From a filamentous cyanobacterium CCP2 (GTDB lineage: Bacteria > Cyanobacteriota > Cyanobacteriia > Elainellales > Elainellaceae): 36,239 nt of DNA. The DNA lies in the NCBI GenBank assembly GCA_003003615.1, contig PVWD01000031.1, positions 1 to 36,239 on the forward strand, written 5' to 3'. The translations under genes were made by a program, and so were the position numbers. Under the pieces are notes generated by a model. The model did no database searches and had not been told where the DNA came from. It worked only from the letters and a program-made list of their open reading frames with translations. Positions 14,955-22,491 of this stretch are shown piece after piece; position 1 is the first letter of the stretch; each line of letters starts with the position of its first letter.

Positions 14955-16235
14955 ATGTCTACTGCAATTCCCGCAACGATCGCCCTTATTGCCCACGACA
15001 CAAAGAAAGATAATATCGTTGACTTTGCCAGGCAGTACACCCCTGTATTAGGACGATATCGGCTAATTGCCACCGGAACCACAGGGCAGCGCATTCAATC
15101 TGCAACCGATCTGCCCGTGCAAACAGTGTTGTCTGGCCCAATGGGGGGAGATGCCCAAATTGCGGCAGAAGTGGCAACGGGGAACGTTTTGGCGGTCATT
15201 TTTTTGGTTGACCCGCTCTATGCCCAACCCCACGAACCCGACATTCAAGCACTTTTAAGAATTTGTAATGTCCATAACGTGCCCCTAGCAACCAACGTGG
15301 CAACGGCAGAGTCTATTATGAATGGCTTTGCCAGGGCCCAGATTGCACACTTGATTTTCAACCCCGTCTCTGGGCAGGGGAACGCCGATGAAGAACTGGT
15401 GCTGATTCGCCAATTGTTGGAACCTCATTTTCACTTGCATATTGCTTTTACAGAACCGGAGGTTAGCCCGCAGCAGTTAGCCAAAGAGGCGATCGATGCT
15501 AAAGCAAATCTGATCATTGCCTCTGGTGGAGATGGAACCGTATCAGCAGTCGCAGGAGCCGTAATTGATACGGGGATTCCGTTAGGGGTGATCCCCAGAG
15601 GAACAGCAAACGCCTTTGCAGTCTCGTTGGGAATTCCTCGGTTGATGCCCATTCGTAATGCTTGCCAGGTGATTTTGGGGGGCTATACTCGCACGGTGGA
15701 TGCGGCTCGCTGCAATGGCTACCCCATGATTCTGCTGGCGGGTATCGGCTTTGAAGCAATGGCAGTCGAGATGGCCGATCGGAATTTTAAAGATCAGTGG
15801 GGTGTGTTGGCATACCTGATGGCAGGCTGGCAAGCTCTTGAAGGGCAACAGCTGTTTGATACAACCATTGAGGCAGAAGACGAAGTTTACCAGTTCCAGG
15901 CTCAGGCGATTACAGTTGCTAATGCAGCTCCTTCCACCTCTGTCTTGGCGCAAGGGGCGGGAGAAGTTGTCTTTGATGATGGTTTGCTGGATGTGACGAT
16001 CGCCTCTGCTCAAAACAAGCTCGAAGGCATCACAACCCTAATGCGAATGCTGGGAGCCGCCATTACCCGCAACACCATTGAACAACAAAACGTTGTCCAT
16101 AGCCGCGCCAGGAAACTTAGAATTATTGCTGAACCGCCCCAAAAGGTGGTGGTCGATGGTGAGTTAATTGGTGAAACTCCTGTGGAAGTGGAATGTTTGC
16201 CCTCTAGCCTAACGGTGTTCGTGCCCAAGCCTTAA
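14955..16235 (+). CDS. Methylglyoxal synthase fused to a diacylglycerol/lipid kinase catalytic domain
   Basis: Residues 1-125 are a complete methylglyoxal synthase: IALIAHDTKKD (H14), LIATGTTG, SGPMGGDAQIA (D66), VIFLVDPLYAQPHEPDIQALLRIC (H93, D96) and VHNVPLATNVATAE. This enzyme turns dihydroxyacetone phosphate into methylglyoxal and phosphate. Residues 130-426 are a YegS/DgkB-type lipid kinase: LIFNPVSGQGN, IIASGGDGTVS, GVIPRGTANAFA, and the C-terminal beta domain with VVDGELIGETPVEVE. The linker is only a few residues, so the two are fused in one polypeptide. The link through triose phosphate and glycerolipid metabolism is suggestive but unproven. The stop codon lies in the first of three CAAGCCTTAATTGCC repeats. 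Confidence 0.93.
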   Translation: MSTAIPATIALIAHDTKKDNIVDFARQYTPVLGRYRLIATGTTGQRIQSATDLPVQTVLSGPMGGDAQIAAEVATGNVLAVIFLVDPLYAQPHEPDIQALLRICNVHNVPLATNVATAESIMNGFARAQIAHLIFNPVSGQGNADEELVLIRQLLEPHFHLHIAFTEPEVSPQQLAKEAIDAKANLIIASGGDGTVSAVAGAVIDTGIPLGVIPRGTANAFAVSLGIPRLMPIRNACQVILGGYTRTVDAARCNGYPMILLAGIGFEAMAVEMADRNFKDQWGVLAYLMAGWQALEGQQLFDTTIEAEDEVYQFQAQAITVANAAPSTSVLAQGAGEVVFDDGLLDVTIASAQNKLEGITTLMRMLGAAITRNTIEQQNVVHSRARKLRIIAEPPQKVVVDGELIGETPVEVECLPSSLTVFVPKP

Positions 16236-16383: not shown

Positions 16384-16797
16384 ATGTATCGTCTTGCGAT
16401 CGTTGATGATAATCAGTCATGGTGCTTTGTCCTGAAACTGCGGCTACAGCAGGAAGGATACGCTGTGACTGCCTTTAACAACGCACAAGCCTTTCTGCGG
16501 GAAGCTGAGCAATTTGACCTCGCGCTAATTGACTTCTCCATTCCGGCTCCCCTTTATCAACCCAAAATGGATGGCCCCGAACTGATCTGCGAACTCAAGT
16601 ACCATCTAGACAACGCCCCTATCCTTGTGCTGATTTCCAGCTTCTTCACCGAAGACGTAATAAACCATGCCACAAACATTTGCCCAGAAGCCGATGCAAT
16701 CTTGAGCAAGCAAACTGAAACGGGTAAGCTGCTTTCTCAAATTCGGCAGTTGTTGAATAGCAAAAAATCGTCAAACCAAAACAGCAGGATTTCTTAG
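16384..16797 (+). CDS. Single-domain response regulator (CheY-like receiver)
   Basis: The product is a 137-residue receiver domain with no output domain. The acidic pair D8-D9 (IVDDNQS), the phospho-acceptor D50 in LALIDFSIP, the serine of LVLISSFF, and K109 in AILSKQTE are all in the expected places. There is a short insertion after the phospho-acceptor loop (PLYQPKMDGPELICE) before the MDG motif. It would act by protein-protein contact after phosphorylation by a histidine kinase, but no kinase is encoded nearby. It stands alone between the lipid-kinase gene and ssrA on the same strand. Confidence 0.88.
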   Translation: MYRLAIVDDNQSWCFVLKLRLQQEGYAVTAFNNAQAFLREAEQFDLALIDFSIPAPLYQPKMDGPELICELKYHLDNAPILVLISSFFTEDVINHATNICPEADAILSKQTETGKLLSQIRQLLNSKKSSNQNSRIS

Positions 16798-17460: not shown

Positions 17461-18726
17461 CTATTTTTTAACCAGAATGTAGGCCTTGGCATATTCTGGC
17501 AAGCTGCTGGTTTGAGCATAAAACTCATTTCGATCGCGGAATACGCCCGCTAAGAAGTCCAGTTGGTGAAGGTTGGGTAAGAAGGCTCCGCCCGTGTCGG
17601 CAATCATTCCCAGTTGTAAGGTTTGCCCATATTCCAACACCACAATCCGCCCTAGCCCAATATTCAGCACATCTCCAGCAAAGGTGACTCCTGGCTTGAT
17701 TGAAATTTTGGCATCCGATTCATGCCCGTAGCCCTTGATGTCGGTTACGGGTCTGAAGTACCAATATCGCCCTTGCTGGTAGGGGGACAAGTTGCGATCG
17801 TAGGCAATGCCATTGTTGCGATCGACGTTGAAGTAACCAGAGGAGCCATCCGTGAAGTTAATCAAAATTGTCCCCTGCATCAAGGCATCTTCAAAGCTAT
17901 CTCGCGTCAGGTAGGCCAGCGGCTCAACTCTGCCCTGTTCTCGTCCGCCTGCTTCGTAAATTCCTGCCAAAACTTCTTGCTTGGTGTAGTTCAGGTAAAA
18001 CCGATCGGTTTCGGCATCTTCCCGGAGGCGGTAGAGCGGAACGTTAAAGGTTTCTGTGCGAGTACGAGAACCTGGATGGGTGAAAACGGCATATTTAGTA
18101 AGGCGGAGGAGCCGTTGCCCAGGATCAGCAGGGTTATAAGCCGTCCATTCCATAACCCGAAAGTGGGTGTTGATGAAGATTGGATCTTTGAGGCGGATGG
18201 GCTGCTGGTTGGCAATGTCTTCCTGGAGGGTTGCAATCATAAATTCCAGGGTGTTCAATACATCGGCAACTGTCACGCCTTGCGCCCCTAAAATGCCTGC
18301 TCGCTGCACATCGGGGTTTTCGCTGGCATAGGTTTGGAAATAGGCTTGCGTGTTTTGCAGCACCGTCAGCATATCGGTTTCATTGAACCGCAGGCTCGTT
18401 CCGGGCAGGGTTCCCGCCTGAAACACCCGATCGCTCTGCACACTAAATTGGTTATTGTAAAACTCATCGATCGCTGGATAGGGCGAATCTGCTGCAAGTT
18501 GGGTTTGCTGAGTCTGGTTCACCTCAATCGGGTTTGGTGAGGTTTGCGCTGTTAAACCCTGCGCTGTTAAAACTGGCTCTGCTGTATCCTGAGCCATTGC
18601 AGCCGAATGGATGGAAGCCAGCGATCGGGAAGGCAGAGAGAATAATTTTTGATGAATGGCTAACCCCAACAGCAGGGCACAGGCAAAGCAAAGCAACAAA
18701 CCGATTTTGCGACTCACGATTCTCAT
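17461..18726 (-). CDS. Secreted or membrane-anchored protein with a probable C-terminal 3D (MltA-like double-psi barrel) domain
   Basis: The 421-residue product begins with a basic N-terminus and a hydrophobic segment (about 8-25), then a low-complexity linker rich in Ala, Thr and Gln (40-80), so it is exported. The central region (90-300) is unfamiliar to me. The C-terminal stretch KPGVTFAGDVLNIGLGRIVVLEYGQTLQLGM followed by ADTGGAF (D377) and LHQLDFLAG (D390) resembles the 3D domain of lytic transglycosylase MltA and YabE/YuiC proteins, where these aspartates mark the active site. Peptidoglycan or glycan cleavage is therefore possible. It begins 14 bases after the DUF1574 gene ends, so the pair is almost certainly co-transcribed. 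Confidence 0.62.
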   Translation of the reverse strand: MRIVSRKIGLLLCFACALLLGLAIHQKLFSLPSRSLASIHSAAMAQDTAEPVLTAQGLTAQTSPNPIEVNQTQQTQLAADSPYPAIDEFYNNQFSVQSDRVFQAGTLPGTSLRFNETDMLTVLQNTQAYFQTYASENPDVQRAGILGAQGVTVADVLNTLEFMIATLQEDIANQQPIRLKDPIFINTHFRVMEWTAYNPADPGQRLLRLTKYAVFTHPGSRTRTETFNVPLYRLREDAETDRFYLNYTKQEVLAGIYEAGGREQGRVEPLAYLTRDSFEDALMQGTILINFTDGSSGYFNVDRNNGIAYDRNLSPYQQGRYWYFRPVTDIKGYGHESDAKISIKPGVTFAGDVLNIGLGRIVVLEYGQTLQLGMIADTGGAFLPNLHQLDFLAGVFRDRNEFYAQTSSLPEYAKAYILVKK

Positions 18727-18740
18727 GACACCTCGTTTCT

Positions 18741-21700
18741 CTAGCGGGACGGATTCCAGGGAATGAGCGGATCTTGCGCCAAATGACGAGAAACGGCATA
18801 AGCTCCGTAGCGGTTTAGGTGGCTGGGATCAGAGAAATACGCATAGTCGGTCATCCAGAGTCTACCTAAATCTCGGAAGGTGAAGCCCGGTTGCTCTAAA
18901 CCCAAGCGCACCATATATTCCCGGAAGTCCTGCTCATATTCTCGGCGCACCGGATCAAGATACTCATCTGTTAAGGGTAGATTGACGAAAACGATCGGGA
19001 TTTGTTGCGCCTGAGTATATCGCAGCACAGACAGCAAAGCCTCCTGCTGGGCACCGGGAATGCGGAAGTTGCTGTAGTCGCGATCGTAGTCTCCTGTCAC
19101 CCTGGCATACTGCTGGTAGTAGGTGGCAGGGTTAAACTGAAGCCCCAAAGACAGAAAACCCTTTGCATCCACCAATTCATAGTCAGACGGGAGGTTGGCT
19201 TGGGTAGGCTGCACGGCACTGGCTGGAGTCGTTTCCGGAGGAGACACCGGGAAGAGAAGGGTTAACCCCTCTTGAAGCTGTTGTTTCAGCCGATCGCGGG
19301 ATTCATACAGTCCAGAGGCTCTGGCAAGTTGCTGGCTCATCGATCGATCGAGGGACTGGTAGCTGTCGGTTAAGGTGACATTAATTCCCTGATCTGCGGA
19401 GGCGATCGGGCTTTCGGCTGGCTGTCCGGGCTGACTCACCGTTGGTAAGACCAATGTCCCTTGCACAAGCTCCTGATAGGCTGGGGATGCCGCAATGCCG
19501 TTATAGGTAACATCTTCACCGTTACTGTTAAAGGCTCTGGCCCCGTCTGCCCACAGAATTAATCGAGGCAGTTGTTCTGGCGTTAAGACCTGCCGCAGTA
19601 ATAATTCAATCACCTGAGCCGTTGCCCCATTTACCCCAAAGTTGAAAACGCTCACGTCTTCATAGCCCAACTCGGCTAAGGCCGCTTCCAGGGCGATCGG
19701 GTCAACCCCACGCAATGCCCTAGAGCTTCCCACCACCAAAATATCTGGCGTTCCTGACTCCTCCAGCACTCGATAGTACAGGCTCAGCTTGTCGTTAAAC
19801 TGGCGGCTGTTGAAGTTGGGGGCATCGGTTTCGGCGGCAAGGCTTTCTGCCAGAGCTAGGTTAACGGCAGGACTATGGGGCGTGTAGGGCAGGGACGTAG
19901 GGGCAGAACGAGCAGCAGGGGCGGAAGGAGTAGGGGAAGCCAGGGGAGAGGGTGCTGGTGATGGAGATGCAGCAGGTGACGGCGTGTTGGGGGTGGGTTC
20001 GGTGAAGCCGCCCGTGTTGAAGGCATCGGCATCTTCATTGGCAGACTGGTTCAACCGTAGCTCAGGAATTTGAAAGTCTGTGGGTTCTTCTTCGGCGATC
20101 GGGCTGGTGGAAGACACCACTGAGGCTGGTGGGCTGGGAGATGGGGCAGGAGACTCTGCGATTGGATCGGTTTGAGGGGCTGCTGTTGTGGATGGTTCTG
20201 GCTGAACCCGCAGGGCCCCTTCCAATAGCCAGTTCACTTGCAGTACCAGCAGCACCCCAACGGCTCCCCATACCATGACAACGGGCATTCCCTGGTGGTT
20301 CTGGTCGGGCAGGGCAAGGCTGGTTTCATTCAAATCATTGCCAACAAAGAGGCGAGAGCGCAACAGCGTTTTTTGTAGCCCGTGCAGGCATCGTTGGGTG
20401 AAGTTTGACCAGAGGGTGTGGAGGTCGGTGGGGGCGGGATCGTGGCGAAGGGTTGGGTCGCCAGGACGGGCAATTAGCTCATTCACATAGGCATCGCTGG
20501 CAGCAAATTCGGGAGTGGCTTCTGGCACAATTCGATTGCGCGGCACAAAGTCAACCCCATAACTCCACATGGGCTGTTTTTGTCCTGCCCGTCGTCCATA
20601 AATCCGCACCCCCGACAGATTGGGCAACTTTAGCGGCTCCAGGAAACGGGCGATCGTCTGGCTAAGCTGACGTTGATCAGGGCAGACGGCTGCTTCACTC
20701 ATAATGTGGAGCAAATCCCGCTTGGGCAATAGCTTTAACCGAATTCCCCCCGTGTTGAGATATTGTTCTAGATTCGGGTTTAGCAAACGGTGCAGCAAAA
20801 ATGCGATCGCCTCCCAGTCTCCTTGCTGGGCCAAATTTAGGGCAGATTCACTTAAGGCAGGATGCATTCCCGCAGGCAGGTTCAGCCATTCCAGCCATTC
20901 TGGCCGATCGCGATCGGTAATTTGCCCGTAGATAGCGGCAGCGTGGACACCCTGTGGGGCAATTTTCTCTAAAATCGGCGTAATTTCTGTTAAAATAGCG
21001 GGTTTTTCTGGAAATTCAGCCGTTTCAGGTAAATCTTTTGCAATTGATTGTCCTGTCTCTAATCCTGGCATTTTGGTGCAGATCAGATGCAGGGTTTGTT
21101 CCTTGAGTGACGCACCCGAAAACTGACAGCCCAAGTGGGCAATCGCCTGATTGAGCAACCGTTGAATTGCCTCAACGTCACCCCACCGACCCCATTCCCG
21201 CAGCATTTCCTCTGGCGGCGTTAAATCTACCCGCAGTAACCAGTCTGGCTGCGCTTCCCCTGCCACCTGAAACACGATAATGGCATCGCGATACCCCTCA
21301 ATCTCTAGCTCCCGGAGTTGCTGAGTAATCGATTCACCCACCAGGGAAGCTTCTGGACTGTAGATCGCGTCACAAGCAATCCACAGCCGCTTGGCCGTTA
21401 GGGATGCAGCAATGTCAGTGGAGTAAACGGCTGAGTTGGCAATAAAGGGAATCGTTTTGACGCTGACACAGACCGCAATTCCCAGGCGGCTCAAGGTTTC
21501 ACTCAGGTAAGAAGCGATCGCCGTTTCATTTCCCTGGCGGGCCAAACTGCGGTTGGATAGGGCAAGGGCCGAACCACCCGATGAGGGGAAGGGCGGTAGG
21601 GTATTTTTTGAGGCTGAAGCATTCCTCTTATCAATGGCTACCGATTTTGAATCGGCTTCTGCTTCAAGTTGAGCCAGATGAGAGTCAAGTTGATTCAGGT

Positions 21701-22004
21701 AAATTGTGGCAGTCCAGATGGGCTGGGGCAGTCCTGTTTGGCAGATGTAAAGCTGAATCTGATAAATTTGGGGGCTGCTGGCGGTGATGAATGTGTTGAT
21801 GTCGGTTTTCTGAAGTGCTGGAATGAACCGATGCAAAAGGGTCAGGCGATCGGGGTAGTTCTCCCCTTCGTAGAGAATGTGTAAATTGTTGCCCCGCCTG
21901 TGAAATTTAATCTGCGACGCATCTGCCCCAACGGCATGATAAATCCATTGGTTTAAACTTGCTTCTGGGCGAGAGGTAGGCTGTTTTTCCACAAGATTTG
22001 ACAT
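18741..22004 (-). CDS. DUF1574-like cyanobacterial membrane protein with a periplasmic SGNH-like domain
   Basis: The first ~560 residues of this 1087-residue protein are soluble and contain repeated units; compare GDVEAIQRLLNQAIAHLG (275-292) with GDWEAIAFLLHRLLNPNL (395-412), each followed by a similar beta-rich segment. A single membrane helix lies at about 573-592. Beyond it is a Pro/Ser/Ala-rich linker (600-715), then an SGNH-like domain (about 735-1087): ILVVGSSRALRG with candidate nucleophile S760, NFGVNGATAQ, and YFSDPSHLNRYG with D1059 and H1062 as a D-x-x-H pair. This matches the DUF1574 family as I know it. SGNH enzymes of this type acylate or deacylate surface polymers, but no substrate is known. 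The cytoplasmic repeats suggest a sensing or scaffold part. Confidence 0.75.
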   Translation of the reverse strand: MSNLVEKQPTSRPEASLNQWIYHAVGADASQIKFHRRGNNLHILYEGENYPDRLTLLHRFIPALQKTDINTFITASSPQIYQIQLYICQTGLPQPIWTATIYLNQLDSHLAQLEAEADSKSVAIDKRNASASKNTLPPFPSSGGSALALSNRSLARQGNETAIASYLSETLSRLGIAVCVSVKTIPFIANSAVYSTDIAASLTAKRLWIACDAIYSPEASLVGESITQQLRELEIEGYRDAIIVFQVAGEAQPDWLLRVDLTPPEEMLREWGRWGDVEAIQRLLNQAIAHLGCQFSGASLKEQTLHLICTKMPGLETGQSIAKDLPETAEFPEKPAILTEITPILEKIAPQGVHAAAIYGQITDRDRPEWLEWLNLPAGMHPALSESALNLAQQGDWEAIAFLLHRLLNPNLEQYLNTGGIRLKLLPKRDLLHIMSEAAVCPDQRQLSQTIARFLEPLKLPNLSGVRIYGRRAGQKQPMWSYGVDFVPRNRIVPEATPEFAASDAYVNELIARPGDPTLRHDPAPTDLHTLWSNFTQRCLHGLQKTLLRSRLFVGNDLNETSLALPDQNHQGMPVVMVWGAVGVLLVLQVNWLLEGALRVQPEPSTTAAPQTDPIAESPAPSPSPPASVVSSTSPIAEEEPTDFQIPELRLNQSANEDADAFNTGGFTEPTPNTPSPAASPSPAPSPLASPTPSAPAARSAPTSLPYTPHSPAVNLALAESLAAETDAPNFNSRQFNDKLSLYYRVLEESGTPDILVVGSSRALRGVDPIALEAALAELGYEDVSVFNFGVNGATAQVIELLLRQVLTPEQLPRLILWADGARAFNSNGEDVTYNGIAASPAYQELVQGTLVLPTVSQPGQPAESPIASADQGINVTLTDSYQSLDRSMSQQLARASGLYESRDRLKQQLQEGLTLLFPVSPPETTPASAVQPTQANLPSDYELVDAKGFLSLGLQFNPATYYQQYARVTGDYDRDYSNFRIPGAQQEALLSVLRYTQAQQIPIVFVNLPLTDEYLDPVRREYEQDFREYMVRLGLEQPGFTFRDLGRLWMTDYAYFSDPSHLNRYGAYAVSRHLAQDPLIPWNPSR

Positions 22005-22305: not shown

Positions 22306-22491
22306 ATGAAGCACTCTAACACACCCGCCAAACTTCTCCTGAGCCTGGGGACGGCTCCTCTTTTGGTTGCCCTTGTGGGTAGCAAAGTCCTGGCAACCTT
22401 GATGCAAGAAATCGGTCAAACTACCGAAGAACTGTTTCGGGGCGATCGGCTCCCCGTTCTGAAAATCGCGCCGAAGGATGAAGAAGGATAG
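22306..22491 (+). CDS. Small conserved-looking protein with one hydrophobic segment (61 aa)
   Basis: The frame is open from 22129, but the product only takes on a protein-like character from ATG 22306: MKHSNTPAKLLLSLGTAPL, then VALVGSKVLATLMQEIGQ, then a polar end with GDRLPVLKIAPKDEEG. One membrane-length segment runs from about residue 8 to 30. The upstream part of the frame is rich in Cys, Arg and Ser and overlaps the TTTGTGCAAG repeats, so it is unlikely to be coding. Short proteins of this shape occur in cyanobacteria, but I do not know a function. It points toward the PNPOx-like gene on the opposite strand. Confidence 0.6.
   Translation: MKHSNTPAKLLLSLGTAPLLVALVGSKVLATLMQEIGQTTEELFRGDRLPVLKIAPKDEEG

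Follow-up and report, generated by a model that had tools for sequence, protein, structure and literature searches.

In the PatA/PatB system, the MBOAT protein acetylates the tyrosine of a C-terminal FXYXXF hexapeptide, and the acetyl group passes from there to the serine of the SGNH protein (Anderson et al. 2025, PMC12148441). The same route has been proposed for other MBOAT-SGNH pairs, and systems whose MBOAT carries the hexapeptide itself are linked to acyl-CoA as the donor (PMC12148441). In alginate O-acetylation, AlgX and AlgJ are circularly permuted with the motif order H-S-G-N, and DUF1574 (PF07611) is a family with no assigned function and no member of known function (PMC9487903). Our literature search found neither a paper on MBOAT-SGNH pairs in cyanobacteria nor one on their DUF1574 proteins.

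The window analysed here is a stretch of 36,239 nucleotides from the filamentous cyanobacterium CCP2 (contig PVWD01000031.1). We propose that one of its genes, at positions 18741-22004, encodes one half of a two-protein MBOAT-SGNH O-acyltransferase that acts in the cyanobacterial envelope, namely its SGNH transfer subunit. We give this reading a probability of about 0.8. The mechanism is a known one, and its cyanobacterial version is unreported in the papers searched. The new part is the cytoplasmic repeat of the protein, which is an undescribed module.

Gene layout and domain architecture

The reading frame is open from ATG to stop exactly over these positions and comprises 1087 codons. The coordinates given in the preliminary description are therefore exact, whereas the strand is corrected here to minus. 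The architecture described there, in which a single frame joins N-terminal repeats, one helix, a Pro/Ser linker and a C-terminal domain with S760, D1059 and H1062, is confirmed (Table 1). Full-length relatives, which share 46-60% identity with the window protein, have the same layout; most members of the window's family encode one, as do many other families of cyanobacteria. Both halves of the protein are conserved, with a mean column identity of 60% in the C-terminal alignment and 47% in the N-terminal one. Alignment-based queries were needed for scanning the genome contigs, as a scan with the single protein as the query gave 0 matches.

Table 1. Positions of the gene and of its observed and predicted features in the window
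Feature	Residues	Positions	Strand	Basis
Whole gene, putative MBOAT-partner SGNH acyltransferase subunit with N-terminal cytoplasmic repeats	1-1087	18741..22004	-	ORF, relatives, alignment
Repeat unit A, without first helix pair	14-110	21675..21965	-	hhalign E 1.9e-17 (A-D), 8.9e-10 (A-C), 2.8e-9 (A-B); AF2; module profile match
Repeat unit B	148-266	21207..21563	-	hhalign E 1e-12 (B-D), 1.4e-11 (B-C); AF2; module profile match
Repeat unit C	266-380	20865..21209	-	hhalign E 7e-13 (C-D); AF2; module profile match
Repeat unit D, nearest to stand-alone module copies	381-492	20529..20864	-	31-32% identity to the module in L004, L006 and L007; hhalign; module profile match
Predicted single transmembrane helix, probably N-terminus in and C-terminus out	572-594	20223..20291	-	Hydropathy; K/R charge bias
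Pro/Ser/Ala/Thr-rich linker	595-711	19872..20222	-	Composition; low alignment occupancy
Predicted periplasmic SGNH domain	712-1087	18744..19871	-	AF2 pLDDT 87.5; Foldseek DltD E 1.6e-6, probability 1.00; DUF1574 match in 83/83 relatives
GSSR, block I, predicted nucleophile Ser760	759-762	19719..19730	-	Invariant in 83 relatives
DPSH, block V, predicted Asp1059 and His1062	1059-1062	18819..18830	-	Invariant in 83 relatives

One hydrophobic segment stands out in the whole protein (residues 572-590, KD19 2.06), and a segment with a hydropathy of at least 1.4 is found at the same position in 96 of 104 long relatives. The residues around it are biased in charge: K and R are more frequent on the N-terminal side in 71 of the long relatives, equally frequent on both sides in 14 and less frequent in 19. 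Hydropathy and charge bias together agree with the single membrane helix claimed earlier, and the bias suggests an N-in/C-out topology. The linker that follows, described earlier as 115 residues long, measures 117 residues and contains 26 prolines and 18 serines.

Profile-profile comparison (hhalign) resolves the N-terminal part into four mutually homologous units of ~100 residues, the E values of the unit pairs ranging from 2.8e-9 (A-B) to 1.9e-17 (A-D). The repetition noticed in the preliminary description is thus more than chance, and the number of units is now set at four, with GDxEAI-like text present in three of them. The repeat part is predicted to be folded (AlphaFold pLDDT 86.3), each unit consisting of helix-helix-two strands-helix-two strands except that unit A does not have the full helix pair. 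A Foldseek search of the PDB with the repeat part returned no credible fold match (best E 1.4e-3, probability 0.28, TM 0.13), and no Pfam or NCBIfam model covers these repeats. A likeness to FliF and GerM domains was discarded as a passing similarity below any usable score.

The module is also found outside this gene. A profile search of the same genome gives a total of 11 copies in 8 proteins, the seven other proteins (on contigs C86, C360, C161, C209, C250, C114 and C220) having a single N-terminal copy each. These proteins differ widely in their C-terminal parts, which include a PrsW-type protease, a TrkA-N channel-like protein and a CapA-like (PGA_cap) protein among others, and in every copy read the module is followed by hydrophobic membrane segments. 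Among 116 sampled genomes of the phylum, the module matches listed are all within the window's class. Being followed by membrane segments in the copies read and, in the matches listed, confined to this class, the unit is a cyanobacterial N-terminal module of membrane proteins. It merits a family entry of its own.

The C-terminal SGNH domain

The AlphaFold model of the C-terminal domain (pTM 0.79) places the serine at the turn between a strand and a helix, and DPSH ahead of the final helix. In a Foldseek comparison with the PDB, DltD structures come first (6pfx, TM about 0.46), followed by esterases of the same fold (EstL5, TesA and PAF-AH); the probability is 1.00 for DltD and for the GDSL/TesA/PAF-AH structures alike. 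The SGNH-like domain proposed in the preliminary description is therefore recovered in the model, and the two motifs were correctly positioned there: S760, D1059 and H1062 are invariant in 83 of 83 non-redundant relatives, short paralogues included. With this fold and the membrane helix both predicted, neither of the outcomes named beforehand as contradicting that description was observed. The alpha/beta fold, the block I serine and the block V Asp-x-x-His are those of the SGNH superfamily. For the oxyanion hole, the block II glycine could come from a conserved NFGxNGAT stretch (residues 788-795); WADGAR stands at the block III position, where a GxND with its Asn is usual.

In Pfam, DUF1574 is matched at E 0.1 or better by each of the 83 non-redundant members (best E 4.2e-14); DltD is matched by 26 of them and ALGX, weakly, by 15, while PatB/DUF459 is absent among the Pfam families matched by these members. 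The window protein taken alone scores 13.1-17.2 bits against DUF1574, below the cut-off of 29.1, so that the DUF1574 label given earlier holds for the family and not, by the Pfam cut-off, for this single sequence. L197, a 704-residue relative with the same layout, is above the cut-offs of both DUF1574 (50.3 vs 29.1 bits) and DltD (PF04914, 29 vs 22.7 bits). The window protein matched DltD neither in Pfam nor in NCBIfam at E 1; the short SGNH paralogue of the same genome scores 13.5 bits against TIGR04092, where 150 are needed. We regard the protein, as judged by these curated scores, as DltD-like and do not file it as DltD. The order of its motifs, with the Ser block (759-762) first and the Asp-His block (1059-1062) last, is not the permuted order of AlgX/AlgJ (PF16822). 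Designed PPR proteins appeared as PDB sequence matches of the C-terminal profile, covering ~20 residues, and were dismissed as artefacts. Because of the fold matches, the Pfam matches and the position of L197 above both cut-offs, the C-terminal domain is predicted to be of SGNH type and DltD-like, and DUF1574 is a fair label for the family.

The MBOAT partner and other neighbours

The gene-neighbour survey across cyanobacteria, which the preliminary description had suggested, revealed a partner for this protein, an MBOAT of DltB/AlgI type. By neighbour clustering, the MBOAT gene directly follows the SGNH gene on the same strand in 54 of 106 long loci, and the two adjoin in at least 58 sampled genomes. 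The gap between the two genes is 21-221 bp where the whole pair or the C-terminal piece of the SGNH gene is listed; gaps of about 1.2-1.6 kb are cases in which the distance was taken from an N-terminal SGNH piece only. Within the window's own family the genes are not linked to each other, and the pairing there rests on orthology and co-occurrence. The MBOAT of the window's own genome (G000:C385:29702-31195) matches DltB structures with an E value of 2e-28.

Co-occurrence was evaluated in 291 genomes of the class (completeness filter 95), with strong matches defined by E<1e-80 for the MBOAT and E<1e-20 for the SGNH protein. A strong MBOAT was found in 173 genomes and a strong SGNH match in 177; both are present in 173, neither in 114, SGNH only in 4 and MBOAT only in 0, counts in which presence follows whole families, so that independent gains and losses are far below 291 and a Fisher test on them ignores phylogeny. 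A different MBOAT only is found in 18 genomes, all of them without the long SGNH gene. It could be argued that the SGNH protein acts independently of the MBOAT and that their neighbourhood reflects shared control only, since the genes are unlinked in the window's own family and four genomes (G252, G272, G283 and G295) have the SGNH gene without the MBOAT. However, these four assemblies are all fragmented (550-1060 contigs), and the cognate MBOAT without the long SGNH gene is seen in 0 of 291 genomes, so we consider such independence very improbable.

The partner carries the marks of a shuttle. All 95 full-length MBOATs of the cluster have a C-terminal [FYHW]-[ILV]-Y-F-x-[FY], mostly YIYFDF and in most members starting with Tyr, not Phe, and 93 of the 95 have a WHG His motif. 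These match the shuttle hexapeptide FXYXXF and the catalytic histidine described in PMC12148441. Of the features of MBOAT-SGNH systems, a dedicated MBOAT partner and a Tyr hexapeptide at its C-terminus are found; acyl transfer to an extracytoplasmic polymer would be the third.

A short SGNH paralogue of about 413 residues, with an N-terminal anchor and the same triad, is encoded in the window's own genome (G000:C360:2097-3146; L002, L057) and is present in most genomes of the window's family. It could be the real MBOAT partner or a second one. Its presence here and in most relatives, with the same triad, also means that one of the two proteins could be an esterase. As SGNH folds are mostly hydrolases, and EstL5, TesA and PAF-AH come after DltD in the fold search, the window's SGNH domain might remove acyl groups from an envelope polymer and so trim the additions of the MBOAT and the short paralogue. 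Yet the best fold matches are to DltD, a transferase, and the long gene directly adjoins the MBOAT in many genomes. Moreover, one cyanobacterial family (f24) keeps the MBOAT, and most of its genomes show a single match to the SGNH query; the one f24 SGNH protein whose full sequence was read (L197) belongs to the long type with repeats and must be the transferase there. We therefore consider the esterase reading improbable, and keep the transfer subunit as the preferred assignment. A second MBOAT of the same genome (G000:C495:22163-24543, L224) has its own adjacent DUF1574-like gene and forms a separate MBOAT-SGNH pair.

Several other neighbours were considered as components and rejected. The divergent microprotein gene at 22306-22491 (+), of 61 residues, was suspected as a DltX-type third subunit since 85 of 97 loci have it upstream of the long gene. 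It is present in genomes without the pair, absent from f24 genomes with the pair, and without the FXYXXF motif. It is often linked to ppc, lying on the same strand and immediately upstream of it in five flanks from genomes without the pair (L214, L215, L217, L218 and L221). The microprotein is a conserved membrane protein with the motif SEExFRGDRLPxL, found in 193 of 291 cyanobacterial genomes and with no Pfam or NCBIfam match. The ppc gene itself is a common but divergent neighbour that is absent in the window, and is read as ancestral synteny. The gene 14 bp downstream, at 17461-18726 (-), is found there in 6 of 60 relatives and is elsewhere unlinked. It encodes an exported-looking protein of 421 residues, in which a DTGGAF stretch and a weak match to the MltA insert (E 0.023) are seen. 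Farther along the window, the gene at 14955-16235 (+) fuses a methylglyoxal synthase domain to a YegS-type lipid kinase (MGS + DAGK_cat + YegS_C), and a lone response-regulator receiver follows at 16384-16797.

Proposed acyl transfer, its polymer and known systems

By analogy with PatA/PatB and DltB/DltX/DltD, from which chemistry and topology are taken, the following route may be proposed. The cognate MBOAT would take an acyl group on the cytoplasmic side, most likely acetyl from acetyl-CoA, and load it onto the tyrosine of its C-terminal YIYFDF at the periplasmic face. Acetyl-CoA is the likely donor because fusion of the hexapeptide to the MBOAT has been linked to the use of acyl-CoA (PMC12148441). 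The window protein, held beside the MBOAT by its single helix, would accept the acyl group on Ser760 of a predicted Ser760/Asp1059/His1062 triad, and the long flexible linker would let the SGNH domain hand it to a periplasmic or exported sugar polymer. The helix and the long linker fit a partner that is docked on the MBOAT and whose catalytic domain reaches the polymer, so that action on an outside polymer, as supposed earlier, is the natural inference. By this pair, small acyl groups seem to be attached to an envelope sugar polymer in most filamentous cyanobacteria.

In the same scheme, the cytoplasmic four-unit repeat would dock or regulate the complex, though its role there is conjecture. 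It might regulate the acylation reaction, and sensing by it is possible. The stronger proposal, that the repeat is a ligand- or partner-binding control module gating periplasmic polymer acylation from inside the cell, and that the same module, which in every copy read is N-terminal and followed by membrane segments, serves cyanobacteria generally as a means to control or place membrane proteins, is tentative and on balance doubtful.

For the polymer, an exopolysaccharide or capsule that is exported, as in cellulose acetylation and the AlgIJX system, has a little less than an even chance. Group 1 and family 2 glycosyltransferase genes lie beside the long gene in G025, G013 and G018 and beside the short paralogue in G017, and the pair is found mostly in large-genome families and is absent from small-genome ones; against this, no Wzx/Wzy/Wzc or synthase gene was identified in the glycosyltransferase clusters, and a neighbour of 774 residues has no Pfam match. 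That the polymer is instead peptidoglycan or a peptidoglycan-linked polysaccharide, making the pair a cyanobacterial counterpart of PatAB or of secondary-wall-polymer acetylation, is rather unlikely. It would agree with mraY adjoining the short paralogue in three genomes of the window's family (G025, G006 and G013) and the long gene in a fourth (G017), and with the weak MltA-like match of the gene downstream in the window. However, mraY is about 300 bp off where measured and the genomes are few, the MltA-like gene is downstream in only 6 of 60 genomes, and glycosyltransferase genes are instead the neighbours of the long gene in three other genomes of the family. In addition, whole cyanobacterial families lack the pair although they still need peptidoglycan. 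As pointers to the substrate, the mraY and glycosyltransferase neighbours were set aside as only suggestive, since they occur in few genomes and in G017 have changed places between the long and the short paralogue. We lean, weakly, toward an exported polysaccharide over peptidoglycan.

Two observations concern these loci in their own right. The long and short SGNH genes are apparently swapped between the glycosyltransferase and mraY loci in G017 relative to its relatives; the loci compared are L038, L040, L044, L039 and L060, from G025, G013, G018 and G017. A family of proteins of 670-776 residues is encoded beside glycosyltransferase and SGNH genes (L038:11221-13545 (-), L044:5033-7045 (+) and L060:4635-6965 (+)); it has one apparent membrane helix by eye, and the member scanned (L038) gave no Pfam match at E 0.01.

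The preliminary description had presented the protein as a candidate for an undescribed system. This claim is narrowed because the MBOAT partner was found: the core would work like known MBOAT-SGNH acyltransferases, while the repeat module and the cyanobacterial version of the pair are undescribed. The link between DUF1574 and a dedicated MBOAT that bears an acyl-shuttle peptide provides the family with a function that can be tested in a large proportion of cyanobacteria. It also predicts that their envelope polymer undergoes O-acylation by a system that, as far as our searches show, the cyanobacterial literature does not mention. We know of no other MBOAT-partner SGNH protein with a large cytoplasmic domain; the window protein would be the first, and this domain would be a place where the cell could control the modification of its wall or sheath.

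We have compared the pair with three known systems. It resembles AlgI/AlgJ/AlgX of alginate O-acetylation in combining one MBOAT with two SGNH proteins, long and short, in many genomes and in the weak ALGX matches of 15 of the 83 SGNH members, but the window protein has its Ser first and Asp-His last, in contrast to AlgX and AlgJ. With PatA/PatB, the Gram-negative peptidoglycan O-acetyltransferase, it shares an MBOAT with a C-terminal Tyr hexapeptide and a separate SGNH protein whose anchor is a single helix at the N-terminus (PMC12148441). With DltB/DltX/DltD of teichoic acid D-alanylation it shares its structural matches, DltD being the best solved-structure match of the SGNH domain and the MBOAT matching DltB structures; the Tyr hexapeptide, however, is fused to the cyanobacterial MBOAT, whereas in the Dlt system it is on the DltX microprotein. 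To our knowledge cyanobacteria make no teichoic acid, and PatB, unlike the window protein, does not have a cytoplasmic repeat part of ~560 residues.
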